Part shown: positions 14,515 through 33,347 of the stretch, in pieces
How the letters are laid out: each line of letters opens with the position of its first letter
Position numbering within the stretch: position 1 is the first letter of the stretch
Source of the DNA: Lachnospiraceae bacterium
GTDB taxonomy: Bacteria; Bacillota; Clostridia; Lachnospirales; Lachnospiraceae
Assembly: GCA_017634975.1 (NCBI GenBank)
Contig: JAGBMJ010000009.1
Span: forward strand, 1-33,347
Direction: 5' to 3'
Length of the DNA: 33,347 nucleotides
Position numbers and translations under genes: made by a program
The notes under the pieces: generated by a model
What the model was told of the DNA's origin: nothing
Database searches by the model: none
What the model saw: the letters and a program-made list of their open reading frames with translations, nothing else

Positions 14515-14898
14515 CTATCGAATTTCTCCCAGAAAATACTGTTTTGCTGTTTCTTTCACTCTTGCCCAGTCATCCGTTGTCCGGTATACGATGGGTGATC
14601 CGCTCCACTCATAAAGCGTGGCGTTTCCTTTGGCAAACTGTTTTAATGCTTTCTTCAGATCCCATCCGTTAATGTCCAGCACCTCATCCAGCTGCCATTC
14701 GATAAAGTCCTTCGGCTCATCCAGGCGCAGATAGTCCGCCTTCGGTCTCACATATATAAACCGCACATCATAATCGCTGTCGGGAGAGGCAAAGCCCCAC
14801 GCCCTGCTACCCGATTCAACTGCGTGGAGGATACGCACGCCTTCCTTCTTTTCTATTTCATCCAGTTTTTCATTGATCTCTGCCAATATATCTCTCAT
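14515..14898 (-). pseudogene. Truncated nucleotidyltransferase (RlaP/YcgL-like superfamily)
   Basis: 127 residues with the polymerase-beta-type active site SGSRAWGFASPDSDYDVRFI (GS plus DxD) and the following EWQLDEVLDINGWDLKKALKQF. Relatives of this type run to about 250 residues and continue with a helical region; here the protein ends after ETAKQYFLGEIR, so the C-terminal half is missing. It may be a decayed gene or a catalytic-domain-only form. The ATG overlaps the upstream nucleotidyltransferase stop by 4 bp with ribosome site GGAGAA, so it is still well placed for translation. Confidence 0.65.
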
Positions 14899-15917
14899 CG
14901 TAATTCTCCGGTTACCGCATAGCGATTTACTCTTTCTACAAATTCTGAAACCTTCTTCATATCCGGATTGTCCGGCAGTGTCGTTTTCGCTGCCGCCTCA
15001 TCCAGTCTGTTCTCATATTCTTCGAGGATTTCGTAAAACGCCGGCGAAAACGTTCCGTCACTCTGCATATATTCGCCTCTTCGTATCGAAAGCAGCAGCG
15101 GAAGATCCTCTCTTCTGTGTGTGCAGATTCGGTGTTTTTCCAGAATATCGATTGCCATCATAAACAGGCGGATCAGATGCATGGCATGCTTATTCAGATG
15201 ATTATCATCCTTCTTCTTATTTCTCTTACCGATCTTGTCATAATCCCGGACAACCGTTTTCATCGCTCCCCACAGATCCGTATAGTCACGAAGCGGAAAA
15301 TGCTTATAATTCGAATCCACAAATATCTCCGTTTCCAACTCCGGATTGACCGCCTTATCGATATACATCCGCATACCGTTCTTTTCATCACCTTCATACC
15401 TGCGGTTAAAATCCTCCAGAGAATTTAAGACCGATTTCAGTATATGCTTTTCTCTGTCACTCTGCGGCAGAGTATCCCTTGCGATGGCATTCTGCAAACG
15501 ACGTAGCTGCGCATCCGCATATCCGCCAAAGGATTTGATCGCGCGTTTGGAAAGAAACAGATCCGTATGATCGATCAGCTCCTGCCCCAGCGCAGATTTG
15601 ATCAGATACTGATCCTCATCCAATCCCAGCATCTCACAGGTATTGGGATTGCATTCCAGCAAAAGCCGTACCAGCTTGTTAAATCCGTAGATAACCGTAT
15701 CCGTCTTATCATCCTCATACTGCTCAAACTCCGTAAGGCCGATCAGATCCGACGGCAGCTGCAGCGTAACTCCGCGGAAGTCGATATCACTTCCCGCATT
15801 GTTCGTTCCGTAGGCATAGCTTCCGCCAAGTCCCAAAAGCATGATCCTGTCTCCCAAGCGTTCATTCGTCCTCAGAAAATCATATTGTTCGGTGTTCATC
15901 AACGCCTTAAAATCCAT
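14895..15917 (-). CDS. Nucleotidyltransferase, DNA polymerase beta superfamily (RlaP-like)
   Basis: 340 residues. The N-terminal catalytic pattern LGLGGSYAYGTNNAGSDIDF (GGSxxxG with DxD) identifies a polymerase-beta-type nucleotidyltransferase of the large bacterial group annotated as RNA-repair-associated polymerase-beta proteins. The C-terminal part is helical (KHAMHLIRLFMMAIDILE). It would transfer a nucleotide to RNA, protein or a small molecule; the acceptor is unknown. It is coupled to a second, truncated nucleotidyltransferase, and no RNA ligase or other repair gene lies nearby, so a defence or repair role is speculative. Confidence 0.82.
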   Translation of the reverse strand: MDFKALMNTEQYDFLRTNERLGDRIMLLGLGGSYAYGTNNAGSDIDFRGVTLQLPSDLIGLTEFEQYEDDKTDTVIYGFNKLVRLLLECNPNTCEMLGLDEDQYLIKSALGQELIDHTDLFLSKRAIKSFGGYADAQLRRLQNAIARDTLPQSDREKHILKSVLNSLEDFNRRYEGDEKNGMRMYIDKAVNPELETEIFVDSNYKHFPLRDYTDLWGAMKTVVRDYDKIGKRNKKKDDNHLNKHAMHLIRLFMMAIDILEKHRICTHRREDLPLLLSIRRGEYMQSDGTFSPAFYEILEEYENRLDEAAAKTTLPDNPDMKKVSEFVERVNRYAVTGELR

Positions 15918-22682: not shown

Positions 22683-23081
22683 TTACTGTTGTTTTTGTCT
22701 TGAAAAATACATTTTTGAATAACTGTCGCCTTCTCCGACTTCATAGGTCATCGTGTTGTGATCCACCGTAACCGTAGCAAATACATATCCGCCGGGCATC
22801 TGAAGATCGTAAGTATTATTTCCGAGTTCTTTCACATCAAATTCTATCGTGATCGGTTTCCCTATCAAGGCAACATCACAGGTATATACCGCCTTATCTC
22901 CGCTGATCTCATAGGATTCTGCTATGCCCTCATCCGCCAGATCCTTAGCATTCATTTTCGTTCCGTCGGAAAGCACTTCCTTCGTCAATACCCATTTTCC
23001 TTCAATCCCCTGCTCCCCGCATCCGGTCAGCATCAAAAAAGCCACAAAAATAACCACTAACAAATTAGTTTTTCTTTTCAT
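22683..23081 (-). CDS. Small lipoprotein of unknown function
   Basis: 132 residues with a lipoprotein signal: basic start MKRKTN, hydrophobic core LLVVIFVAFLM and lipobox LTGC with the lipidated C21. The mature part is a small beta-rich domain (GKWVLTKEVLSDG, YEISGDKAVYTCDV, TYEVGEGDSYSKMYFSRQ), like the short lipocalin-like domains common in Firmicute lipoproteins. Exported and anchored to the outer face of the membrane. Precedes trpF by 18 bp; no functional link is evident. Confidence 0.82.
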   Translation of the reverse strand: MKRKTNLLVVIFVAFLMLTGCGEQGIEGKWVLTKEVLSDGTKMNAKDLADEGIAESYEISGDKAVYTCDVALIGKPITIEFDVKELGNNTYDLQMPGGYVFATVTVDHNTMTYEVGEGDSYSKMYFSRQKQQ

Positions 23082-23302
23082 TGTTTTATCCTTCCTGTTA
23101 TACTGTTTTTGCTTCTTCCAAAAAATCGTTTATGTATTTCTCCAATACCCCCGGGGAATATCTATTTTATTTTGATGCTTTTCCTACTTATCTCCGAACG
23201 CATTTACAAATGCCTCGTAATTACTTTCATCTCCGGGTGAGCAGTAGACAGCAAATCTATACTAAACAATAGAGATTTAAATCACATACTCATTCGCTCT
23301 TT
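23082..23302. other. Intergenic region between Rep and lipoprotein genes, possible gene remnant
   Basis: 221 bp without an intact gene. On the minus strand a short open stretch ending in a stop near 23190 would read YCSPGDESNYEAFVNAFGDK, which has protein-like composition but no start or ribosome site, so it may be the end of a decayed gene. A GC-rich palindrome CCCCGGGG lies at about 23150-23157. Confidence 0.3.
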
Positions 23303-24508
23303 TCAGTACTTCGCAAAGAATTCCGAATATTCCTCATCTGTATGCTGCATCATTTTATCATAAGTACCATTTTTCTTTTTCGTGTTCTGATATTTGTCAC
23401 GAATAGCAGTAAGCAAAAATCCGGTCAGGTTGTGGATCTCTCCTGCTTCTTTGGCAATACGGTACGCATCTTTGGCTTTTTCCAGATCCCCGTCTGTTGC
23501 AAGAACGATCTGACGCAGATCTTTTGTGGGCAGTTTTTCATCAATCATATCTCGCAGTTCATCGATCATATCATCCATATTCTGTTCTGAAATCTTTATT
23601 TCTCTTTCTTCCGTTTTAACTTTTTTACAGTTCTTTTCGTTGGTATAGATGTAAAAATCCACCGCTGTCGTCTTTCCGCCTCTTCCGGATCGCACCAGAT
23701 GGTATTCAAAACGAATAGATGCTTTCTCATCCAACTCTTTTTTTGCCACATCCAGTACGTTTCTGCGGAAATTGGAAAACTCCTTCATGGAACTCTGATC
23801 AAAATCCTCTACATCCCTGTATGTTTTATTCCTCTTCTGCAACACTTCCAGCACCTTGTTGGAAGATCCGTCAATAATCCCAAGCATTAGTTTCAGATGT
23901 GTAAAGTCATACTGGATATAATATGGTTTGCCGGCATTATCGACTTCATTCTGCCGCATCAGCCATTCCTGAATGGACACATTCTGCCGAAAGATCTCCA
24001 AAAGACGATAGGAATATATGGAGCTCATGGACATCATTTCATTGGCATCCAGACAGGTATAGTTGTTTTTCATATCGATGATATAATCCTTCATGGACGG
24101 ATTAAAGGTTACACTTAAAACGCCTTTCCTGAAATCCGCATCCATGATCAGGTTATGTGCAGAAAAACTCTTATCCTTTTTATTTTCCATGACCACCATA
24201 AAGCCCATCAGTGTTCCATTATGTGTTTTCTTGTCATTCTGTTTTCCATAACAGGCCTTCTTAATGGATTCATAAAAAGATCCGGAATTTTTGTCCCGGT
24301 CAAAGATCTTATGCAATTCATCTCCAGTAATCCTTGCAGACAGCTTTCCGTCTTCTTCCCAGCCGGCACGCATAGTGGAGATCAAAAGCAGTTTATTCGT
24401 CATCAAAGTCGGAGTAGACAGACTTAGGATCAGTTCATTAGATTTTTTATAAATATTACTCCCGATATAAGTGGATGCCGGTAGTGTCTCTGCTGTTCTT
24501 TGTTTCAT
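23303..24508 (-). CDS. Replication initiator protein, Rep_3 family (RepB/RepA type)
   Basis: 401 residues. The N-terminal half has the features of Rep_3 initiators: KKSNELILSLSTPTLMTNKL, then SIYSYRLLEIFRQN, characteristic of the first winged helix, and QYDFTHLKLMLGI with KEFSNFRRNVLDVAKKELDE, which matches the second winged helix and its DNA-contact region. These proteins bind iterons and open the origin of theta-replicating plasmids and chromids. The C-terminal 100 residues are a polar tail found in larger relatives. The promoter side faces a long iteron array, as expected. Upstream is GAGGGACGGATT before the ATG at 24508. Confidence 0.88.
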   Translation of the reverse strand: MKQRTAETLPASTYIGSNIYKKSNELILSLSTPTLMTNKLLLISTMRAGWEEDGKLSARITGDELHKIFDRDKNSGSFYESIKKACYGKQNDKKTHNGTLMGFMVVMENKKDKSFSAHNLIMDADFRKGVLSVTFNPSMKDYIIDMKNNYTCLDANEMMSMSSIYSYRLLEIFRQNVSIQEWLMRQNEVDNAGKPYYIQYDFTHLKLMLGIIDGSSNKVLEVLQKRNKTYRDVEDFDQSSMKEFSNFRRNVLDVAKKELDEKASIRFEYHLVRSGRGGKTTAVDFYIYTNEKNCKKVKTEEREIKISEQNMDDMIDELRDMIDEKLPTKDLRQIVLATDGDLEKAKDAYRIAKEAGEIHNLTGFLLTAIRDKYQNTKKKNGTYDKMMQHTDEEYSEFFAKY

Positions 24509-24529
24509 AATCCGTCCCTCTTTTTATTC

Positions 24530-24675
24530 CCGTTTACCGCCAAACTTCCCGTCTGCTCTGCCGTTTACCGCCGAACTTCCCATCTGCTCTGCCGTTTGCG
24601 GTGAAAGTTTTAAAAAAATAATATATAATGGTGCCGTTTTTCGCCATTCTTCTGCCGTTTTCCGCCAAACTTGCT
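24530..24675. repeat. Rep-proximal iterons (31-bp unit)
   Basis: Two adjacent 31-bp direct repeats, 24530-24560 and 24561-24591, differ at two positions (pattern CCGTTTACCGCCRAACTT then CCRTCTGCTCTG). A degenerate third start lies at 24592 and a further isolated half unit at about 24655-24672. They sit just before the Rep start codon (24508), with an AT-rich stretch (24609-24630) between units, so they are well placed for both origin binding and autoregulation of Rep. Confidence 0.85.
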
Positions 24676-24778
24676 CGTTAAGAGTATCATGCTTTTCCTA
24701 AAATAGCAAGCATAATTTATGCAAAACATTGTATTAGAATCTGCTGAAAACTACCATATTTTGTGGTTTTTTCCTCTT

Positions 24779-25270
24779 TTTTACAGAACTATACATTTGC
24801 CGTTATTTTACATAACCTCACATAAATCTACCGTTTTTTATCAGAACCTCTACCAATTTTATCTGATATTTTACAGAACTTTTCAATTATTTTTCCGAAA
24901 TTTATCAGAACTTCTTTCTATTGCATCTGTCTCTTTCTTCCGGAATTTTACAGAACTTCCATTTTGGCTTCCGTTTTGACTATTCTGTTTTTTACAGGGC
25001 TTTTATGTATTCTCCGCTAAATTACAGAACTTCAAGATTTCCTGCCGTATTTTATCAGAACTTCCAAATCGCCTTACCCTATTTTAGCAGTACTTCCGCC
25101 GGTCTTTTCCGTTCTGTTTCCGAAATACAACAGAACTTTACTACGAAAAATCTTCCGTCTTTTATAAGGACTTCTGCCGGAAAAATAGCATTCTTACCCC
25201 GTCTTTTTATCATACTTCTGCCATATTATTTCATAACTTTACAGCAAAAAGCCTTATTTTACAGGGGTTA
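24779..25270. repeat. Distal iteron array of a replication origin
   Basis: About 15 copies of a degenerate unit with core TTTTAYCAGAACTTC, often preceded by CCGT, at near 24781, 24807, 24838, 24871, 24902, 24948, 24991, 25022, 25052, 25083, 25127, 25161, 25206, 25229 and 25256. Many adjacent copies are 30-33 bp apart, three helical turns and the same as the Rep-proximal unit; others are 43-46 bp apart. The region is AT-rich and non-coding; apparent rightward frames here are by-products of the repeat. It is the probable origin bound by the Rep protein. Confidence 0.82.
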
Positions 25271-25355
25271 CTGTGATTTTAAGAAAAAGAAAAGAAAATA
25301 CTGTTGTTTATTAAATCAAAAAAGAACAACAACATTTTATGTATTTCGCAAATTA

Positions 25356-26555
25356 TTACTTGTTGATCAACAGTTGTATCCTGTTATAATAGTTTAGTTT
25401 TGCTCCGCTCATGTCCGTCTCAACCACGGCTATGGAAGTCTCCGGATATTGGCGCTTCAAATACGGATACAGTCCTCTGCCCTCACAGACGTTTGGCATG
25501 CATCCGAAGGGAGCGATACAAAGGATCTTATTCACGCCGTTATGAATATAATCGACCACCTCTGCGCCAAGAAGCCAACCGTCTCCGATCAGAAAATTGT
25601 GGGAAATCTGTTTCCGGGAATTTTTGTCCATGACTTCATATGCACTGAGCGTCTTGAATCCATGACGAACCATTGCGCTTCTCATAGCCTCCTGCGTATG
25701 AACCAAAATCTTTTTGACGATCTCAAAGCCGGCTCTTTCAATATTAAATCTATCCGGCTTATGAGAATCAACGTAATAAAGTGCATACCAGGAAGCACCG
25801 TTCACAAAGGCTTCACATCCATGCTCTTCCAGATACCGTATGACATTCCAATTTCCGAGTGCGCAATACTTGACATAGAATTCAGCCACAATCCCTACGA
25901 CCTTGCGTTCCTTGCCGTCTCTTTCGATCTTCTCATAGGACTCGGCGATCCGTTCAAAATTCTTTTTCATCTTGCCAAGCGTGAGATTCTTACCGAACCG
26001 CAGATCCAGTGAAAGTTCCTTCACCCATTTTTGATATAACGCATCCGTCTCGCCCTTGTTCACTTCATAAGGACGGACCTGATTCGAAAGCATCATAAGG
26101 ATATCGCCGTAAAAAAGACCGAACAGGCCCCGGATCACGGTATCAAAATTGATCTTGAGGGAGATCTCATCCTCGACATGCCGGACATTAATGGTCAGAA
26201 CCCTTACATCATCAAATCCCGCTCTCATAAGGGATCGTCTCATTAATCCTATGTAACACGCTCCCCTGCATGCATCACCTGCCGTAGGAATCAGGACAAA
26301 AGTTTTTCCGGGATCATACTTTTTCGTCTTAAGTGCCCTGACCACCTGACCTGTCATCAGAATGAAAGGAAAGCAGATATCGTGATTTGCATACTTCATA
26401 CCTTCCGATTTGATCTCAAACTCATCAGTCTCATTCAAAAGCACAACACAATATCCCTTGCTCCAAAACATGTATTTCAGCAAGGGATAATGGGCATCCA
26501 TCATCGCCGGTATCAGTATGGTGTTTTCTTCTTTTTCCTTTTTGATCTTATACAT
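25356..26555 (-). CDS. 2-hydroxyacyl-CoA dehydratase-related protein (COG3581-like)
   Basis: 399 residues, soluble. Cysteine motifs HDICFPF, GDACRGACYIGL and APFGCMPNVC resemble those of the dehydratase-like module found in large BadF/HgdC-type activase fusion proteins, where they hold a 4Fe-4S cluster. Here the module stands alone with no activator ATPase beside it. The reaction is unknown for this branch; electron transfer or radical-type activation is family inference. It starts at 26555, 77 bp downstream of the broken peptidase gene, and ends about 85 bp from the iteron array. Apparently complete, since it begins TILIPAMMDAHYPLL and ends in a regular fold. Confidence 0.72.
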   Translation of the reverse strand: MYKIKKEKEENTILIPAMMDAHYPLLKYMFWSKGYCVVLLNETDEFEIKSEGMKYANHDICFPFILMTGQVVRALKTKKYDPGKTFVLIPTAGDACRGACYIGLMRRSLMRAGFDDVRVLTINVRHVEDEISLKINFDTVIRGLFGLFYGDILMMLSNQVRPYEVNKGETDALYQKWVKELSLDLRFGKNLTLGKMKKNFERIAESYEKIERDGKERKVVGIVAEFYVKYCALGNWNVIRYLEEHGCEAFVNGASWYALYYVDSHKPDRFNIERAGFEIVKKILVHTQEAMRSAMVRHGFKTLSAYEVMDKNSRKQISHNFLIGDGWLLGAEVVDYIHNGVNKILCIAPFGCMPNVCEGRGLYPYLKRQYPETSIAVVETDMSGAKLNYYNRIQLLINK

Positions 26556-26632
26556 AAATTATGGGCTATGTTCTTCTCTGATAACCTGATCCCAACCCGT
26601 GGTTCATACTTATGGCAGAACTTTTTACAGCT

Positions 26633-27581
26633 TTATACTTTCTTCTCCATCTCTTCCACGATATGCTTTATACAGCCGTCTTCAAAAGGTGAATCAAGTC
26701 CTGCTGCCTTAAGCTCCGGAATATAAAAATCACTGACGGATAGTTTGCAGAACTTGAGATAACGTTCCCAGGCATCCTTATAGTCCCTGTCCATGGCAAT
26801 CTTAAACTGCATTGCACATACACTGGCAAGAACGTAATCTATATAATAGAATGGCGCGTAAAAGATATGCCCCTGTTTCTGCCACCAGCCACCGGCCGAG
26901 AAAAACGGATCGTTGTCATAATCCAGCAGCGGGCGGTACTGCATCTCGAGCTTCTTCCACACATCCTTGCGTTCTTTCGGCGTAAGATCCGGCTCTGAAT
27001 AGACGATATGCTGGAACTCATCTACCATACAGCCGTATGGCAGAAACTGTGCCGAATCCTCCAGATGCATAGTCAGATAATCCTCTTTACGATTTCCGAA
27101 AAACTTATCCATCCAACGGTAAGTAAAGTATTCCATACTCATGGAATGAATCTCTGCCGTTTCCATAGTCAGATCATTATGCTCCAAGAGCTCCTCATTT
27201 CTGGTAATATATCCCTGAAAAGCGTGTCCGCATTCATGCGTGATAACATCTACGTCCGAGCTGGTGCCGTTGAAGTTTGCAAAAATGAACGGTGCCCTGT
27301 AATCCTGAAAAAATGTCATAAACCCGCCAGCCCGTTTATTCTTACGTCCCAGTACATCAAAGAGCTCATTTTCCTGCATAAAATCAAAGAATTCCACCGT
27401 TTCCGGAGAGATCTCCCGGTACATCTCCTGCCCCTTCTTCAGTATCTCTTCCGGAGTGCCGACCGGTGAAGGATTACCCTGCGGAAAATAAACATCATTA
27501 TCATAATACTTAAGTGCCCCAAAGCTGCTTTAAAAGTTCCTCTTTGTCCGGTCTTTCATATTTCATATCTGAAAATTTCAT
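26633..27581 (-). pseudogene. M3 family oligoendopeptidase, internally deleted
   Basis: Two pieces of one gene remain. At 27581 a good ribosome site (AGGAG, about 9 nt) precedes MKFSDMKYERPDKEELLKQL, the expected N-terminus of M3 oligoendopeptidases, but the frame meets a stop two codons after LWG. The other piece resumes one base out of frame with ALKYYDNDVYFPQGNP and runs to the end (the 263-residue frame from 27424), with the zinc motif in THECGHAFQGY and a complete C-terminal helical domain. The family is about 560 residues, so roughly 250 internal residues are lost and the active-site half is cut from its start. It is probably inactive. Confidence 0.85.
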
Positions 27582-27663
27582 TATCGTACTTCTCCTGTCA
27601 TTCGTGAAACATGATTATGTAAACACTGTATATTGTGGTTATAATTTGTAAATATCATTATTT

Positions 27664-27713
27664 TGTTGATAATATCCGTGGAACAGTCAGGTTATCAACA
27701 CTACTTATCCACA
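27664..27713. promoter_or_regulatory. DnaA-box cluster in AT-rich intergenic DNA
   Basis: A perfect DnaA box TTATCCACA lies at 27705-27713. Two one-mismatch boxes TTATCAACA lie at 27692-27700 (same strand) and 27664-27672 (reverse strand). A half parS-like CGTGAAACA lies at 27603-27611. The surrounding 27582-27750 is strongly AT-rich and has no gene. It could help replication start or bind DnaA as a regulator; the position is 2.4 kb from the iterons. Confidence 0.6.
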
Positions 27714-27751
27714 TTTCGTAAACATATTGTTGAAGAAACATATACTCTTCA

Positions 27752-27803
27752 ACTCCCCCTCATCCGCCCTTCGGGCACCTTCCCCCCGCAAGCTGGGGAA
27801 GGC
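27752..27803. repeat. Short interspersed GC-rich hairpin repeat
   Basis: A block with CCCTCATCCGCCCTTCGGG, then CACCTTCCCCC and GGGGAAGGC arms, forms two small stems. I know this type as a dispersed intergenic repeat in Lachnospiraceae and Ruminococcaceae. It lies 10 bp beyond the stop of the leftward FRG gene and may terminate it. Confidence 0.75.
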
Positions 27804-27813
27804 AATGGGACAA

Positions 27814-28617
27814 TCATTTCACATAGTAATGTCGCGCGATCCATTTGGACAGTCCGGCCAGACCGGGATATACGATACGCTCACTCATATTGAGCTGATC
27901 GAGCATATCACGCACCCGCCAGCGAAGATTTTTCTCAATAATATATTTTACGGTATGCTCCGTCTTGCTGGCCAGGAATCCTTCAATGTCCGTGATCTGC
28001 ATCGGAACAACCGAAAAGAATGAATACTGATTAACGATGCGCTGATTAATGGAAGGTGGCTCAATAACTACCATCGATCTGTCCCCCATATCATAATCGT
28101 ACTGCGCCAGACTGTTCCGAGTAATCTCTGCCAGCATATCCACGGAAAAGATCGTCGCCTGCCGGCAGCCGATGATCTGCTGGTACGGCACCGGAAGCAG
28201 AGATACCAGTTCCGCCATATCGATACGCCATACCATACAGTCATGCTGATCCATCTGTTCCAGATCATCTTCCGTCATCGCAAAATGAAGACCAACTAGA
28301 GCCGAATGCGTCCAATCCAACAACCTGGTCGGCAGACCGTTATGCTGTCCTTCGATCATCTGTCTCCATACCGACTGCTCGATCGTCGGATCACCGATCA
28401 CGGCATACTTTGCAAAATTCTCCAGGATCGCCGGTTCCAGCTGTGCCTGCAGATCCTTACAATTACGCGCCAACGAAGTGTGCATTTTGTATGATGAATT
28501 AGGCATACCGCGATAGATATAGGAACTGCGGTTTCTGTGAAGATCCGCACGATAATCCTGCTCCGTGAGCAGCGGTAACAATTCATCCAGGGTTGTGATA
28601 CGTATTTCCTTGATCAT
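27814..28617 (-). CDS. FRG domain-containing protein
   Basis: 267 residues. The signature YIYRGM (F/Y-R-G), the acidic-helical segment ILENFAKYAV, and the strongly conserved QHNGLPTRLLDWTHSALVGL match the FRG domain, a widespread bacterial domain of uncertain activity often found in accessory and defence-like regions. Soluble, no signal peptide. It is a single-domain protein. No toxin, antitoxin or phage gene is next to it, so a defence role is only a possibility. Followed by a dispersed repeat and the DnaA-box region. Confidence 0.85.
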   Translation of the reverse strand: MIKEIRITTLDELLPLLTEQDYRADLHRNRSSYIYRGMPNSSYKMHTSLARNCKDLQAQLEPAILENFAKYAVIGDPTIEQSVWRQMIEGQHNGLPTRLLDWTHSALVGLHFAMTEDDLEQMDQHDCMVWRIDMAELVSLLPVPYQQIIGCRQATIFSVDMLAEITRNSLAQYDYDMGDRSMVVIEPPSINQRIVNQYSFFSVVPMQITDIEGFLASKTEHTVKYIIEKNLRWRVRDMLDQLNMSERIVYPGLAGLSKWIARHYYVK

Positions 28618-28691
28618 ATAGTGCTATCCTCCGATTATTCTTTCTGAGTCCTGAAGCCTTTTCATACCCTTCGATCAGATCCTAAATTCTA

Positions 28692-29651
28692 TTATATTAA
28701 CTGTAACGACCTGAGAATATAGAGCCAGAAGGTTAATGAGAAGGAACATCCGAACGTAGTCAGCATGATCACGCTGCTGCTCAGGGTTCCTTCGTGCCCC
28801 ATACTCTTTGCCATAATATAACAGCTTACCGTTGTCGCCGAACCAAGCATCACAAGTATCGCAACGATCTGTTCTCCGGCAAATCCCAGCGTAACTGCCA
28901 AAGGAAGAAAAACAGCAGCCAGCACAAAGAGCTTTATGAACGATGCGATCAATGCCGGTTTAAGTTCTTTTAACGCCTTTTGAAACTCAAAAGCAGCACC
29001 CATGGACATCAGGCCCAGGGGAGTGGCCAGTGCCGCGATATTGGAAACGATCGTCTGAACCACCTTCGGCTGCGGAATGCGAAGCACAGACCACAACATT
29101 CCGATGGCAATCCCAAGAATGATCGGGTTGGTAAAGATCCCGTGGATCGTAGACCGGATCCTTTTCTTTCCGTTCTCTTTATTCTCTTCATTCTCTGCGG
29201 TCAGCATCAGAACGATCACGGCAAAAATATTATACAGCGGAACACTGCCGAGTATCATCAGCGGTCCCATACCGGATGCACTCTCACCATAGATATTATG
29301 GATAAAAGCGATCCCGAGAAGTGCTGCACTGCTGCGGTAAGAACTCTGAATAAACTCGCCCCGTTTCGCTCTGTCTTTTACGATCCATTTTGATAACAGC
29401 GCTATGACAGCAATGCTGATCGAGGTGGCAGCAAAACAGAACAGCACGAATTTTCCATTCCAGGTTTTTGCAAAATCCTGATCCGCCAGATCCTTAAAGA
29501 CCAATACCGGAAGTGCTGCCTTAAACACAAACTTATTCATCCAGGCGGCTGCCTTTTCATCGATCAGTCCGATCTTCCGGAAAAGATAACCCAATACCAT
29601 CAACGTAAAGATCGGTACGGTTGCATTTAAACTAAAAATCAGATTATCCAT
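28692..29651 (-). CDS. AEC (auxin efflux carrier) family transporter
   Basis: 319 residues from the ATG at 29651; the 21-codon extension overlaps the ATPase gene out of frame and is rejected. About ten membrane helices in two five-helix halves, starting FSLNATVPIFTLMVLGYLFRKIGLI, with the family pattern of small-residue-rich crossing helices (ATPLGLMSMGAAFEF, ILVMLGSATTVSCYIMAK). Members move organic acids or other small anions (for example malate) across the membrane. The ribosome site is weak, and the gene follows the ATPase gene by 40 bp. Confidence 0.88.
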   Translation of the reverse strand: MDNLIFSLNATVPIFTLMVLGYLFRKIGLIDEKAAAWMNKFVFKAALPVLVFKDLADQDFAKTWNGKFVLFCFAATSISIAVIALLSKWIVKDRAKRGEFIQSSYRSSAALLGIAFIHNIYGESASGMGPLMILGSVPLYNIFAVIVLMLTAENEENKENGKKRIRSTIHGIFTNPIILGIAIGMLWSVLRIPQPKVVQTIVSNIAALATPLGLMSMGAAFEFQKALKELKPALIASFIKLFVLAAVFLPLAVTLGFAGEQIVAILVMLGSATTVSCYIMAKSMGHEGTLSSSVIMLTTFGCSFSLTFWLYILRSLQLI

Positions 29652-29691
29652 CTTACTTTTACAAATCCTTATCTGTTTTCTGCAGGAACAA

Positions 29692-31119
29692 CTATCCCTC
29701 AAACAGATCATCAAGAGTTATTACATCAGATATATATGATAGGTAAGTTGTTCCTGACAATCCCTTTGCTGAAATCATTATAATTTTCAATGCCTGAGCT
29801 GTTCTGGTTTTCTTCTTGAAAATATCCCTTTTTCTAATTAACTGCTGTTCATAAGAGGCATCTACCTCAAATGGTTTGTTCGTATATTTGATCTCACACA
29901 GGTTTGTGATTTTGTCAGCTCTTTCGATCACCATATCTATCTGGGCACGCTCATTTTTATCATCCTCCGAATTATACCAGGGATAACACTCCGTTTTAAC
30001 ACCTCTGATTCCTAAAGCTGATTTAATACTGTACGTGTTTTTGAAGCATAATATCTCAAACGCCTGTCCCCTCCAGTTTTCATATCTTCCTGTATCACTT
30101 ACCAAATCTTCATAACTGTCAATCTTTTTTTCTTTTGACAAACAATGATAATGGAACAACAAAAAAGGATCCATAAGCTGAACATATAAAGGATTATACT
30201 CTTCATACTTTTTCTTGTATTCAATTATATATCCACAATCCACAAGATCCTGTATTGCTCTCCCGTATGTACCATTTGAAGCACCTATTTTCTCCTGTAA
30301 TACGGCTTTCTTAATCCCGTACTTTGCTGATGCCAGCATTGATAAGATTTGTCCATATACAGGTGATTCACTTAGCGTGGCCTCCAGTAGCCTTTTCGTT
30401 TCATCCCTGTAAAGTGCATCTTTATCAAACAGCAGCCTGTTTATGTTCTGAGCAAGGCTATGAGATGTATTCATCAGATCAAAGAAGAACGGAAGACCGC
30501 CAAATATCATCTGACATTCAGCAATCTGTTCTCTTGGCCAATCAAATTCCCTGTCCTTAAAGAATGATTCTGTTTCCGTAAGAGTAAACGGTTCTATACA
30601 GATCTTTTTTGTAACTCTTTGATACATATTACCAGTATTTTTTATTACATTCTTTATGATCCACGAAGTTGCAGAACCGCAAATGATAAAAAGCAGATCT
30701 CCATTAAGAGTTCCTCTACGATTCCAAAAATCCTCAAATGCAACCAGGAAATCCGACCTTTTCGTTGCAAACCACGGAAACTCATCAAGAAATACGATTT
30801 TTTTTCCATTTGGTGAACGACGTACCGAATCCAAAGATAATATTTTATCCATTCTTGAAAATGCTTCAAACCAGTCTTTGGGTGTACTTCTTATATCATC
30901 ACCGTACTCAATCAACCTTTGTCCAAAGGATTTAAGCTGTTGCCTCGCTGTCCCCTTTTCCAACCCCACAGCTCTGAAAGCAAACTCCCTGAATGTCTGC
31001 TCTACCAAAAACGTCTTTCCTACTCTTCGCCTTCCGTAGACACAGATAAGTTCGGATTTCTTTGATCTTTCGCTATTTTCAAGCTCTTTTTTTTCTTCTT
31101 TTCTGCTAATGATCTTCAT
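29692..31119 (-). CDS. AAA ATPase with DUF234 (archaeal-type ATPase_2)
   Basis: 475 residues. Walker A YGRRRVGKT (K35, T36), Walker B IVFLDEFPW, sensor region in FIICGSATSWI, and a winged-helix segment (LQEKIGASNGTYGRAIQDLVDCGYI) in the middle. The C-terminal DUF234 region has the PD-(D/E)xK-like pattern RAQIDMVIERAD...CEIKYT, which may be a nuclease-like or binding fold. These proteins are common in Firmicutes and archaea; the role is unknown, with defence or maintenance suggested by the fold. It has its own strong promoter (31163-31191) and ribosome site AGAGGAT. Confidence 0.9.
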   Translation of the reverse strand: MKIISRKEEKKELENSERSKKSELICVYGRRRVGKTFLVEQTFREFAFRAVGLEKGTARQQLKSFGQRLIEYGDDIRSTPKDWFEAFSRMDKILSLDSVRRSPNGKKIVFLDEFPWFATKRSDFLVAFEDFWNRRGTLNGDLLFIICGSATSWIIKNVIKNTGNMYQRVTKKICIEPFTLTETESFFKDREFDWPREQIAECQMIFGGLPFFFDLMNTSHSLAQNINRLLFDKDALYRDETKRLLEATLSESPVYGQILSMLASAKYGIKKAVLQEKIGASNGTYGRAIQDLVDCGYIIEYKKKYEEYNPLYVQLMDPFLLFHYHCLSKEKKIDSYEDLVSDTGRYENWRGQAFEILCFKNTYSIKSALGIRGVKTECYPWYNSEDDKNERAQIDMVIERADKITNLCEIKYTNKPFEVDASYEQQLIRKRDIFKKKTRTAQALKIIMISAKGLSGTTYLSYISDVITLDDLFEG

Positions 31120-31162
31120 AATAATCCTCTTCTGTTAAAAGTTGGTGAAGTTTATTGATTTA

Positions 31163-31245
31163 ATCATATCATTTTCCCCATTTATAAACAAGTATATGTT
31201 TTATATTTGGGAATTTTTATCGTAAATATATAAATTATCCCAAAT
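31163..31245 (-). promoter_or_regulatory. Promoter of the ATPase gene with upstream inverted repeat
   Basis: On the minus strand -35 TTGTTT (31186-31191), 17-bp spacer, -10 TATGAT (31163-31168), about 37 nt of leader before the ATG at 31119. An 8-bp inverted repeat ATTTGGGA/TCCCAAAT (31205-31212 and 31238-31245) lies just upstream and could be an operator. Confidence 0.65.
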
Positions 31246-31271
31246 AGTTATTTTCACTTACCGGATATTTG

Positions 31272-31399
31272 AACTGTTTCACGTACTTTTTATGTGAAAC
31301 AGTTTTATGTTATCCCTATATTTAGGTTGGATGTTTCACGTGGAACAATATTTTGTATTTTTTAATGTGAAACGTCTTAACCTGTTCTGTGAAACATTA
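31272..31399. promoter_or_regulatory. parS-centred element, copy 1
   Basis: Holds a 16-bp parS-like site TGTTTCACGTGGAACA (31332-31347; one base off the palindrome TGTTTCACGTGAAACA recognised by Spo0J/ParB). Half-sites flank it: a perfect 11-bp inverted pair (31272-31282 with 31294-31304), GTGAAAC near 31367 and GTGAAACA near 31389. The whole block has the same spacing as the block at 32512-32639 and shares an identical 33-nt segment (31293-31325). Probable centromere site of this replicon. Confidence 0.8.
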
Positions 31400-31417
31400 C
31401 GGTTGTCTGGTATCGTT

Positions 31418-31897
31418 TTAATAATGATAATCCATAACGGCACCAACATAAAATACAGATCCATCCTCTATATATCTCATGAATTCATCCATGGTATCCA
31501 TACCTGTTTCCATGCTCAGGACCCAAAATCCATATTCATCTTCGTAATCTTTTTTCAGATTTCGAAACATATTATTTAAATCACTTGTACAAAACTGTTC
31601 CAGTGTAGCATCTTTAAGTTTCTCTATATCTTTCATAAAATCCGAATAACGTTTCTGAAAATATGCCATTTTATTGATAACTGTTACTCTATCACCATCG
31701 ATTTGAAAAACATCTTTATAAATCTTCTTAAACAACTCAATGCTTTCGATTCTTTCTTCATCTGGCGTGCAAACTACATAATCTATCGGATCAACCAATA
31801 TTCCATATTCACTGTCATAACCCAATTCATAATTTTCTTTACAGTAATCTTTCGGATCGATCGGCTTTCTGCTGATCTGAAATATTCTGCTATGCAT
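31418..31897 (-). CDS. Hypothetical protein, first cassette gene between parS elements
   Basis: 159 residues, acidic and soluble, no signal peptide. It has alternating strands (GILVDPIDYVVCTPDEERIE) and helices (SIELFKKIYKDVF, AYFQKRYSDFMKDIEKLKD), with no known catalytic motif; I do not recognise the family. Good ribosome site AAAGGA, 9-10 nt upstream. It starts 5 bp after the stop of the membrane protein gene, so both form one leftward unit enclosed by two parS-like blocks. Confidence 0.65.
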   Translation of the reverse strand: MHSRIFQISRKPIDPKDYCKENYELGYDSEYGILVDPIDYVVCTPDEERIESIELFKKIYKDVFQIDGDRVTVINKMAYFQKRYSDFMKDIEKLKDATLEQFCTSDLNNMFRNLKKDYEDEYGFWVLSMETGMDTMDEFMRYIEDGSVFYVGAVMDYHY

Positions 31898-31902
31898 AAT
31901 CG

Positions 31903-32451
31903 CTATTCCTTTCTCTCCGTATTTTTACATCGGTAATATCCTCGATAAAAATGACTCCCCGCCGGTTTGATCAGAATAAGGGGTGAATTGATTATGTCCG
32001 ATCCGGCAATAAACGCATTCAGCCAGGCAATATAACATAGATACTCTTTTACAGTTCCGGTGCTGAACAGTCCGGCGATTCCGGTGCATCCTGTCAGCAC
32101 CAATAACGGCAGGGTCATAAACAACCAGTATCTTGGTTTTGACAATTCAAAATCCGGAGTCATCCACAGATAAATGCCACCCCAGTAATTCAGATAAATA
32201 TCTCCTTTCCGGAAAACCGTTAAAACATGCAAGGACTCGTGGATCACATAAACAAACGGAAAGAGCAAAATCTTAATCCAAAGATTACCCGCCCGGAATC
32301 CTCTGGTGATCGTTGCCAAAACAAAAAGCAGGATCATCAATCCGTATGCGAAATACATATAATTCTTTCGAAACCATTCATTCCTGATAAATGGTTTGTA
32401 TTCATTATGATCGATATTTAATTTTGGAAGTGGTTTGTTCCAATAGATCAC
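31903..32451 (-). CDS. DUF3267-like membrane metalloprotease-type protein
   Basis: 182 residues; the start is GTG at 32451 with a weak AGGA 12 nt upstream. Four or so membrane helices, with the zinc-type motif HESLH in LFPFVYVIHESLHVLTV and a late acidic motif (NAFIAGSDIINSPLIL), as in DUF3267/site-2-protease-like proteins where a second Asp completes the metal site. It might cleave or bind membrane peptides; function not known. First gene of the two-gene cassette between parS-like elements. Confidence 0.78.
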   Translation of the reverse strand: MIYWNKPLPKLNIDHNEYKPFIRNEWFRKNYMYFAYGLMILLFVLATITRGFRAGNLWIKILLFPFVYVIHESLHVLTVFRKGDIYLNYWGGIYLWMTPDFELSKPRYWLFMTLPLLVLTGCTGIAGLFSTGTVKEYLCYIAWLNAFIAGSDIINSPLILIKPAGSHFYRGYYRCKNTERKE

Positions 32452-32511
32452 TTTATATTTTTCCTATAATTGTTTTAACGATACTTCATCAATGATACTT
32501 TCTAATGAGTT

Positions 32512-32639
32512 ATGTTTCACACTTTCTATTTGTGAAACAGTTTTATGTTATCCCTATATTTAGACACTATGTTTCACGTGAAACATTATTTGGTATTTCA
32601 TTATGTGAAACAGTAATTTCTTTCTTCTGTGAAACATTT
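32512..32639. promoter_or_regulatory. parS-centred element, copy 2
   Basis: A perfect 16-bp palindrome TGTTTCACGTGAAACA (32570-32585) with flanking half-sites TGTTTCAC (32513-32520), GTGAAACA near 32532, GTGAAACA near 32605 and GTGAAACA near 32629, in the same order and spacing as the copy at 31272-31399. Matches the Spo0J/ParB consensus exactly. The two copies are 1.24 kb apart. Confidence 0.85.
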
Positions 32640-32647
32640 GATTAGAC

Positions 32648-32790
32648 AAATTCATGTTTGTCGAGCCGGCGAGCCACGGGGACGGTTCTTGTGGCTAAAG
32701 ATCTTCGATCTTGTTGCCACAAGAACCGTCCCCATGGCTCACCGATAAACATGAATTTATGAGGACAAAAGAACCGTCCCCTTGTCCTCA
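32648..32790. repeat. Long hairpin plus second short hairpin of the interspersed-repeat type
   Basis: Bases 32648-32759 form a long imperfect hairpin (outer arms AAATTCATGTTT/AAACATGAATTT, inner arms with GCCACGGGGACGGTTCTTGT). A second perfect 9-bp hairpin TGAGGACAA/TTGTCCTCA (32760-32790), enclosing AGAACCGTCCCC, ends 1 bp before the VOC stop codon. A terminator for the VOC gene, or a miniature element related to the repeat family. Confidence 0.8.
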
Positions 32791-32791
32791 G

Positions 32792-33175
32792 TTATATCGT
32801 TATCTCAATAATGTTTCCTTCGATTGCTCTGATGCAACTCTCGTAATATCCATCCCCGGTAGTTCTCGGTCCACTGATTACTTCGTATCCGTCTTGCGAA
32901 AGTGTTTCCGTTATCTCATCCACTTTTTCTTTGCTTCCCACAGAGAAGGCAATATGAATATATCCGGTTTGATCCGGATGCTTTACAACCTCTTTCAGAT
33001 TTGGCTTTTTCATCAGTTCCAACCTGGAGCCATCGTCGAAACTGATAAAATAGGACCGGAAATCTGTCTTCGAATTATGATATTCACTATTTGATTTTCC
33101 GCCAAAATAACGTACAAAAAAATCCTTTGCCTCTTCCAGATCAGTTACATACATAGCGATATGTTCTATTTTCAT
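32792..33175 (-). CDS. VOC (glyoxalase/bleomycin-resistance) family protein
   Basis: 127 residues, a complete two-module vicinal-oxygen-chelate fold: N-terminal [22 protein letters not shown] with the first metal ligand His, [10 protein letters not shown], then the second module [18 protein letters not shown] and the C-terminal EGNIIEITI with the Glu ligand. Probably a metal-dependent small-molecule lyase, isomerase or resistance protein; substrate unknown. Ribosome site GGAGAAAGA close to the ATG. The stop lies directly at the repeat hairpin. Confidence 0.9.
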
Positions 33176-33227
33176 TCTTTCTCCGTATATATATGAATGT
33201 ATTCACACTAGTACATCGAACAATTAA

Positions 33228-33347
33228 TAACTGGCCAAATCCGCCGTGCGATAGTCTGTAGGCAATGAAGAGGAAGGAGTCGTAGCGGGCTACGGCGACT
33301 GACGATGAAGCAGCATACGGGCTATCGAACAAGGATATGGCTAGTTA
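33228..33347. ncRNA. 120-nt strongly structured element at the window end, candidate ncRNA
   Basis: Three nested stems: 33228-33242 with 33333-33347 (14 of 15 pairs, one G-T), 33249-33260 with 33316-33327 (12 pairs, two G-T), and an inner hairpin near 33278-33300. Between stems lie purine-rich loops containing AATGAAG (33264-33270) and GATGAAG (33304-33310). No frame runs through it on either strand that looks like protein. It closes at the last base, so it may go on beyond the window. Strand and family unknown; a HEARO/omega-RNA-like element is one possibility, not shown. Confidence 0.55.

Follow-up and report, generated by a model that had tools for sequence, protein, structure and literature searches.

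Duplicated parS-centred blocks in a Lachnospiraceae genome: probable copies of a composite chromosomal centromere with a built-in NrdR-like box pair

Two parS blocks and their surroundings

We analysed a 33,347-nucleotide stretch of Lachnospiraceae bacterium DNA (contig JAGBMJ010000009.1), here called the window; positions are window positions, and features given without a strand are unstranded. Near its end lie two composite blocks of about 123 bp on the + strand, E1 (31275-31396) and E2 (32513-32636), each having one parS and four half-sites, and a degenerate third block, E0 (27604-27685, + strand), is located at lower coordinates. Two genes on the - strand are enclosed by E1 and E2. The first encodes a 159-aa protein (31418-31897), for which no family match above the cut-off was obtained, and the second encodes a DUF3267 putative zincin peptidase with the motif HESLH (31903-32451).

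We detected two parS-like 16-mers with at most three mismatches in the window, against 0.11 expected from shuffles, placing the parS TGTTTCACGTGAAACA beyond chance. The parS of E2 (32570-32585) is perfect and is the sole exact copy in the assembly, and the parS of E1 (TGTTTCACGTGGAACA, 31332-31347) has one mismatch. Across the 147 contigs of the assembly (4.36 Mb), one exact and one 1-mismatch parS were found, which are these same two sites, together with seven other places with two mismatches. Block matches with convincing scores were obtained in the assembly for E1 and E2 only, in a search that did not pick up the degenerate E0.

An alignment of the two blocks gave 82% over 99 nt, with a block-to-block spacing of 1238, and a single 33-nt stretch is identical in both (31293-31325 = 32531-32563). 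The half-sites are, in E1 and E2 respectively, TGTTTCAC at 31275/32513, GTGAAACA at 31294/32532, GTGAAAC(G/A) at 31367/32605 and GTGAAACA again at 31389/32629. The first two form a split left site, TGTTTCAC-N11-GTGAAACA (31275-31301 in E1, 32513-32539 in E2), at the place where typical Lachnospiraceae elements have a second full parS, and the last two form the right half-sites, both on the + strand (31367-31396 in E1, GTGAAAC(G) and GTGAAACA; 32605-32636 in E2). The initial annotation had described two parS-centred blocks with four half-sites, a perfect parS in the second copy and the common 33-nt stretch, all of which we recovered. Its statement that the half-sites are equally spaced holds nearly: the outermost spacing is 22 bp in E1 versus 24 bp in E2, and the third half-site of E1 is a 7/8 match.

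A search of the species-level genome collection placed the 33-nt stretch in one further record, the Lachnospiraceae MAG contig CAMJAP010000045.1 (contig C45 of genome G397, hereafter the relative). This contig has four blocks, including two in tandem. E0 has lost the central parS and keeps the half-site(s), an NrdR-like pair and GTGGAACA; it is found in the relative at 85% over 92 nt. DnaA-box-like sites TTATCAACA and TTATCCACA, 13 bp apart, follow E0 (27692-27713) and are kept in the relative (L085, 978-999). A GAACCGTCCCC-type repeat with inverted and direct copies is present just past E2 (32667-32784).

Clustered parS sites and the box pair across the family

Exact parS was detected in 300 of 397 Lachnospiraceae genomes, and the reversed-pattern control gave 0 among the matches listed. 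Genome G298 has 14 exact parS, and other loci of the family (for instance L150 and L137) have arrays of up to six full parS in about 500 bp. The parS loci were pooled from several searches, and most were drawn by similarity to the window block, which makes the pool biased; 109 of 119 loci also match parA, parB, rsmG, mnmG, mnmE, serS or dnaA.

We counted 545 exact half-sites at distances of up to 150 bp from 262 distinct parS sites, versus 3.9 expected from shuffles, and 190 of the 262 sites have at least one further half-site nearby. Halves of adjacent parS account for 420 of these half-sites and 125 are lone, the latter lying near 59 of the 262 sites; the expectation of 3.9 covers half-sites of any kind and should be compared with the 125 lone ones. 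Multi-element clusters were 97 of 163, with loci L001-L021, L051-L059 and L063-L080 excluded because they represented duplicates or own-genome context. Loci with the box pair described below have the layout parS, 47-62 bp, parS, 35-38 bp, half-site, 12-40 bp (mostly at least 22), half-site. The parS-parS distances peak near 38, 48, 59 and 69 bp, a periodicity of about 10.5-11 bp (best 10.5-11.25, depending on the range) that was equalled in strength by 0 of 5000 jittered sets; the test used 96 parS pairs, 91 after similar spacers were collapsed, so that shared ancestry was only partly removed. The clustered, regularly spaced layout is a trait of the Lachnospiraceae, and the regularity of the half-sites, singled out in the initial annotation as unusual, is meaningful.

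These could be ordinary clustered chromosomal parS sites bound by ParB, the half-sites and box-like flanks being by-products of duplication and AT-rich sequence, an explanation that we consider rather unlikely. It agrees with the usual position of chromosomal parS, near oriC being the norm, and with the copies of the window and the relative being clearly duplicates. The lone half-sites, far above the number of any kind expected, argue against it, and so do the helical-phase regular spacings, which remain after similar spacers are collapsed.

The central parS is flanked on each side by a conserved motif, the two 32 bp apart, which we take to resemble the NrdR box. An initial motif anchored on AAGATAA was superseded by an independent matrix trained at nrdD loci. 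These loci were fetched from 17 of the genomes (NRDD in 17/17; 30 loci), and box-like pairs 31-33 bp apart were present at 19 of the 30. The matrix was trained on 38 boxes from these 19 loci and on no parS loci, the remaining 11 nrdD loci giving no training pair.

With the nrdD-trained matrix, 27 of 119 loci had their best pair on a parS versus 1.0 expected by length, a proportion that is not a prevalence because most loci had been chosen for resembling the window element. Pairs centred on parS made up 14 of the 15 top scores, the offset of the pair from the parS centre was 4-5.5 bp in 26 of the 27 loci, and typical elements upstream of parA scored up to 28 bits. At a floor of at least 18 bits, 22 loci were retained, whereas 200 column-permuted palindromic matrices retained 0.34 on average and 15 at most; with no score floor, 1 of the 200 permuted matrices reached at least 27. 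Among the spacings tried, the signal appeared only at 30-35 bp, mostly at 32-33. The scan covered positions 30501-33347 of the window and the first 8000 bases of L081, and 45 loci had no pair above zero. In 92 of the 119 loci the best pair was not on parS, a result in favour of ordinary parS sites.

The NrdR-pair pattern published in PMC12051234, anchored on parS, fitted 26 of 272 sites, both window parS included, versus 0.15 in shuffles (maximum 2); this is likewise not a prevalence, given the same choice of loci. The count excludes loci selected by pattern (with five such sites included it becomes 31 of 284), and L110 and L168 are likely chance fits in both counts. For the loci of the family-wide exact-parS search alone the result was 4 of 61 versus 0.02 in shuffles. 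Recovery of the box pair by a matrix blind to parS loci, and also by a published pattern, argues against flanks that are by-products of AT-rich sequence.

Matches to a strict composite pattern were obtained in 21 of 397 family genomes, representing 20 genera, with 0 for the reversed control among the matches listed. In a sample of the class it matched 1 of 391 genomes, namely one of the 16 family members, and 0 of 375 outside the family; the own genome and the same-genus genome G004 gave no match to it. Typical elements point at parA in 19 of 19 loci in which parA was found, and four typical loci have no parA in the stretch. The element lies 113-546 bp from the estimated parA start in 18 of the loci with parA and 1178 bp away in the remaining one. 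The two same-genus loci have the box pair in the opposite orientation. The copies in the window and the relative are not directly upstream of parA. A regular expression for the nrdR gene found no match in the fetched loci, which do not cover whole genomes, making this result uninformative.

Alternatively, a different regulator whose site is NrdR-like could use the box pair as its operator, or the pair could consist of parA promoter elements; we regard this explanation as distinctly unlikely. The motif is upstream of parA and points at it in all 19 typical loci with parA found, and box A often contains GATAAT, which resembles the -10 element consensus, as this explanation would have it. Against it, both boxes fit the NrdR core with a spacer of 20-23, as in short NrdR pairs, like pairs occur at the nrdD loci of these same genomes, and the signal is confined to the narrow range of spacings given above. 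The flanking motif had been considered as a parA -10 element, and this assignment was dropped for the palindromic pair and its spacing.

We located NrdR-like boxes in both window blocks. Box A has the core CTATATTTAG in E1 (31316-31325) and in E2 (32554-32563). Box B has the core CAATATTTTG in E1 (31346-31355), sharing two bases with the parS, and the weak core CATTATTTGG in E2 (32584-32593). For short NrdR operator pairs, a spacer of 20-23 between the cores is given in passages of PMC12051234, and both E1 and E2 fit this published core pair, each with a spacer of 20. Of the 12 pairs in the whole 33-kb window, the E1 pair ranked second (17.9 bits) and the E2 pair fifth (7.5 bits); these modest scores are in line with ordinary parS sites. 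The window boxes are 30 bp apart, not 32. Among 10 elements of the window lineage, the published core fits box A in 10 and box B in six. The box pair of E0, scored with the matrix only (16.9 bits), persists without parS in both species.

Box B lies at a distance of 19-22 bp from the half-site R1 in 23 typical elements, which were chosen for having the box pair, versus 20-22 bp in the 10 window-lineage elements. Its distance from the outer parS is 71-75 bp in 19 of the typical loci and 83-85 bp in the other four, and its distance from the outer site is 71-73 bp in the eight window-lineage elements having one. The central parS overlaps box A in typical elements and box B in the window lineage, about one turn further on. 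The box pair thus behaves as a fixed frame within which the parS moved. Fixed half-site distances kept by the box pair while the parS changes place are a further point against ordinary parS sites. The pair was not classed as a known nrd operator because it stands upstream of parA (typical elements) or of other genes (window copies), and not upstream of a ribonucleotide reductase gene.

Replicon, ParB and the enclosed genes

The window and contig C45 of the relative share six segments in the same order at 76-91% identity by blastn (window 14533-15917, 22689-23096, 27603-28617, 28690-29658, 31273-31979 and 32415-32639). Two neighbouring RlaP-like genes (RNA repair polymerase beta family) at 14515-15917 are collinear in the relative. 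Where the window has positions 23096-27603, the relative has about 25 bp; this segment of about 4.5 kb (23097-27602), missing here in the relative, contains the Rep_3 gene (23303-24508). It also encodes a DUF2229 protein and an M3 peptidase, and its right end abuts E0.

On contig C48 of the relative, two further blocks are followed by parA, mnmE, jag, yidC, rnpA, dnaA and dnaN (Pfam-confirmed genes). The ends of C45 and C48 carry the same gene start (44-nt overlap at 93%), suggesting that the two contigs are adjacent. The origin-side place is seen directly for the two blocks of C48, and the window is linked to it via the collinearity with C45 and the suggested C45-C48 adjacency. We found no ParA on the contig of the window, and the parA-dnaA DNA of the relative had no match in the own assembly, an empty result that by itself shows nothing. 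The host assembly is a fragmented bin with 7.46% contamination, and from these two results its own origin contig seems to be absent from the bin; the origin linkage of the window for the same reason rests on the relative. Collinearity with C45, the C48 blocks beside parA and dnaA, and the probable adjacency of these contigs indicate that E1 and E2 are most likely chromosomal parS sites on the origin side, not on a Rep_3 plasmid.

The initial annotation had placed the blocks on a Rep_3 replicon. We consider very unlikely a Rep_3 plasmid or chromid with a chromosomal-type parS, segregated by the host ParB. A Rep_3 initiator gene within the window and no parA in view accord with such a replicon, as does the GC content of the window (0.446), below that of nine other own-genome stretches (0.46-0.52). 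The relative has the same contrast, with 0.42-0.45 in the block contigs versus 0.53 in the parB contig, and its collinear contig is without the Rep_3 segment, its further copies being located beside parA and dnaA. A blastn search of 72,556 plasmid records returned no match to the window. A Rep_3 plasmid with its own centromere was rejected as well, on the missing plasmid match and the collinearity with the relative.

Soj-type ParA and Spo0J-family ParB are present in the lineage, and the own-genome ParB matches Spo0J/ParB structures, e.g. 6sdk and 7bnk. The parB gene order is mnmG-parB-DUF4446-serS, without parA, in both genomes: parB of the relative is on contig C3 with mnmG and serS, apart from parA on C48 beside mnmE near dnaA, and the own parB locus (G000, C15) is without parA. 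The own genome has seven AAA_31 matches, the strongest on C141. Judged from ORFs, the ParB on C141 is accompanied by ParA and conjugation-type genes, and the ParBs on C109 and C71 are accompanied by phage-like genes. No half-site clusters were found in nine own-genome stretches around ParB genes and some of the 2-mismatch parS.

Loading of ParB at the Spo0J-type parS motif is established, and ParB would very likely load at the parS of E1 and E2. The suggestion of the initial annotation that a chromosomal ParB could serve these sites is most likely right, given the Spo0J-family ParB encoded in the genome. The checks that it proposed, a search of the genome for other parS, parA and parB and a comparison with relatives, gave an exact parS at E2 only, together with this ParB, and blocks in G397 on the collinear C45 and the origin-side C48. 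We regard the centromere reading of the blocks as highly probable. ParB spreading is predicted across both enclosed genes.

The enclosed genes had been described as a two-gene cassette, a view that the comparison with the relative did not support: a pair of blocks in the relative encloses a 70% identical homologue of the 159-aa protein gene and only a remnant of the DUF3267 gene, and its other blocks occupy other intergenic gaps. That E1 and E2 are a mobile repeat or an integron-like cassette, with repeats flanking movable genes, is barely credible: direct repeats do flank the two window genes, whereas the intact copies in the assembly number two only, the copies of the relative sit in other gaps (two in tandem 172 bp apart), and one pattern searched in viral contigs gave 0 matches. 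Membership of an integron or mobile cassette was rejected on the two intact copies and the placement in the relative, and a viral origin of the element on the 0 matches to this single pattern.

Proposed mechanism and significance

We read E1 and E2 as copies of a composite chromosomal centromere of the origin region with an NrdR-like pair built in, and assign this reading a probability of about two in three. At the central parS, chromosomal ParB of the Spo0J family would load in the form of a CTP clamp, and additional ParB contacts would be provided by the accessory half-sites at set distances. The design would be that of the element just upstream of parA in other Lachnospiraceae, where the order is parS, NrdR-like boxes about three helical turns apart enclosing a second parS, and two half-sites. 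In the window lineage this element would have been multiplied along the origin flank.

PMC9110341 describes NrdR as a dATP/ATP tetramer on paired boxes that puts a kink of almost 90 degrees into the DNA at each of them, and states that dATP goes up when DNA synthesis slows. At high dATP, NrdR on the boxes would kink the DNA and so contend with ParB for the embedded parS, repress parA, or do both; once dATP drops, the embedded parS would become accessible to ParB. Because the parS sits between the boxes and overlaps one of them, simultaneous binding of ParB and NrdR would be difficult. The two proteins would likely exclude each other at the inner parS, with parA likely repressed at high dATP; we infer the binding of both proteins, their competition and the effect on segregation from the sites, spacings, collinearity and box-pair match described above. 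NrdR probably binds the typical element upstream of parA, and its binding by the window's own copies is doubtful. The parS function is very likely kept in these duplicated copies, which may have retained ParB function and lost NrdR binding.

The system resembles the Spo0J-type ParABS of Bacillus subtilis in the same 16-bp parS, the origin-side location in the relative, the Spo0J-family ParB and the Soj-type ParA. It differs in that each parS is inside a unit of about 120 bp in which the half-sites have set distances, the spacing of paired parS across the family follows a period of 10.5-11 bp, and parA and parB are separated in the relative, the own parB locus being without parA. ParB of Pseudomonas aeruginosa was described in PMC10419367 and PMC7022226 to bind half-parS, with the same heptamer GTTTCAC in the half-site; the half-sites of that species are scattered over the genome, whereas ours lie next to parS at constant distances. 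Two boxes about three helical turns apart also make up the NrdR operators at ribonucleotide reductase genes (PMC12051234, PMC9110341), and the nrdD matrix recognises our pair. The pair here differs in being upstream of parA and enclosing a parS, not at an nrd gene.

The plasmid centromeres P1 parS, F sopC and pSM19035 parS have several sites in register, and multiple sites with ordered spacing are common to them and to our blocks. In contrast to these, the blocks are most likely chromosomal, have a Spo0J-type parS and contain the operator-like pair of a second regulator. In our searches of open-licence PMC papers we saw no report of an NrdR box at parS, or of helical parS spacing in Lachnospiraceae. 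What appears to be new here, judged from sequence, is that the half-sites of a chromosomal parS centromere are in register and that the centromere incorporates an NrdR-like operator.

These observations bear on the open question of how bacteria coordinate the segregation of their chromosome with DNA synthesis. We tentatively propose that in part of the Lachnospiraceae the main centromere lies inside a nucleotide-sensing operator, the dNTP state gating ParB loading and/or parA, and that the window lineage carries an origin-side array of this switch. If this is true, a parS inside an NrdR operator would be a direct wire from dNTP sensing to segregation, NrdR would gain a target outside the ribonucleotide reductase genes, and the family would have a chromosomal centromere with paired parS and half-sites held in helical register.
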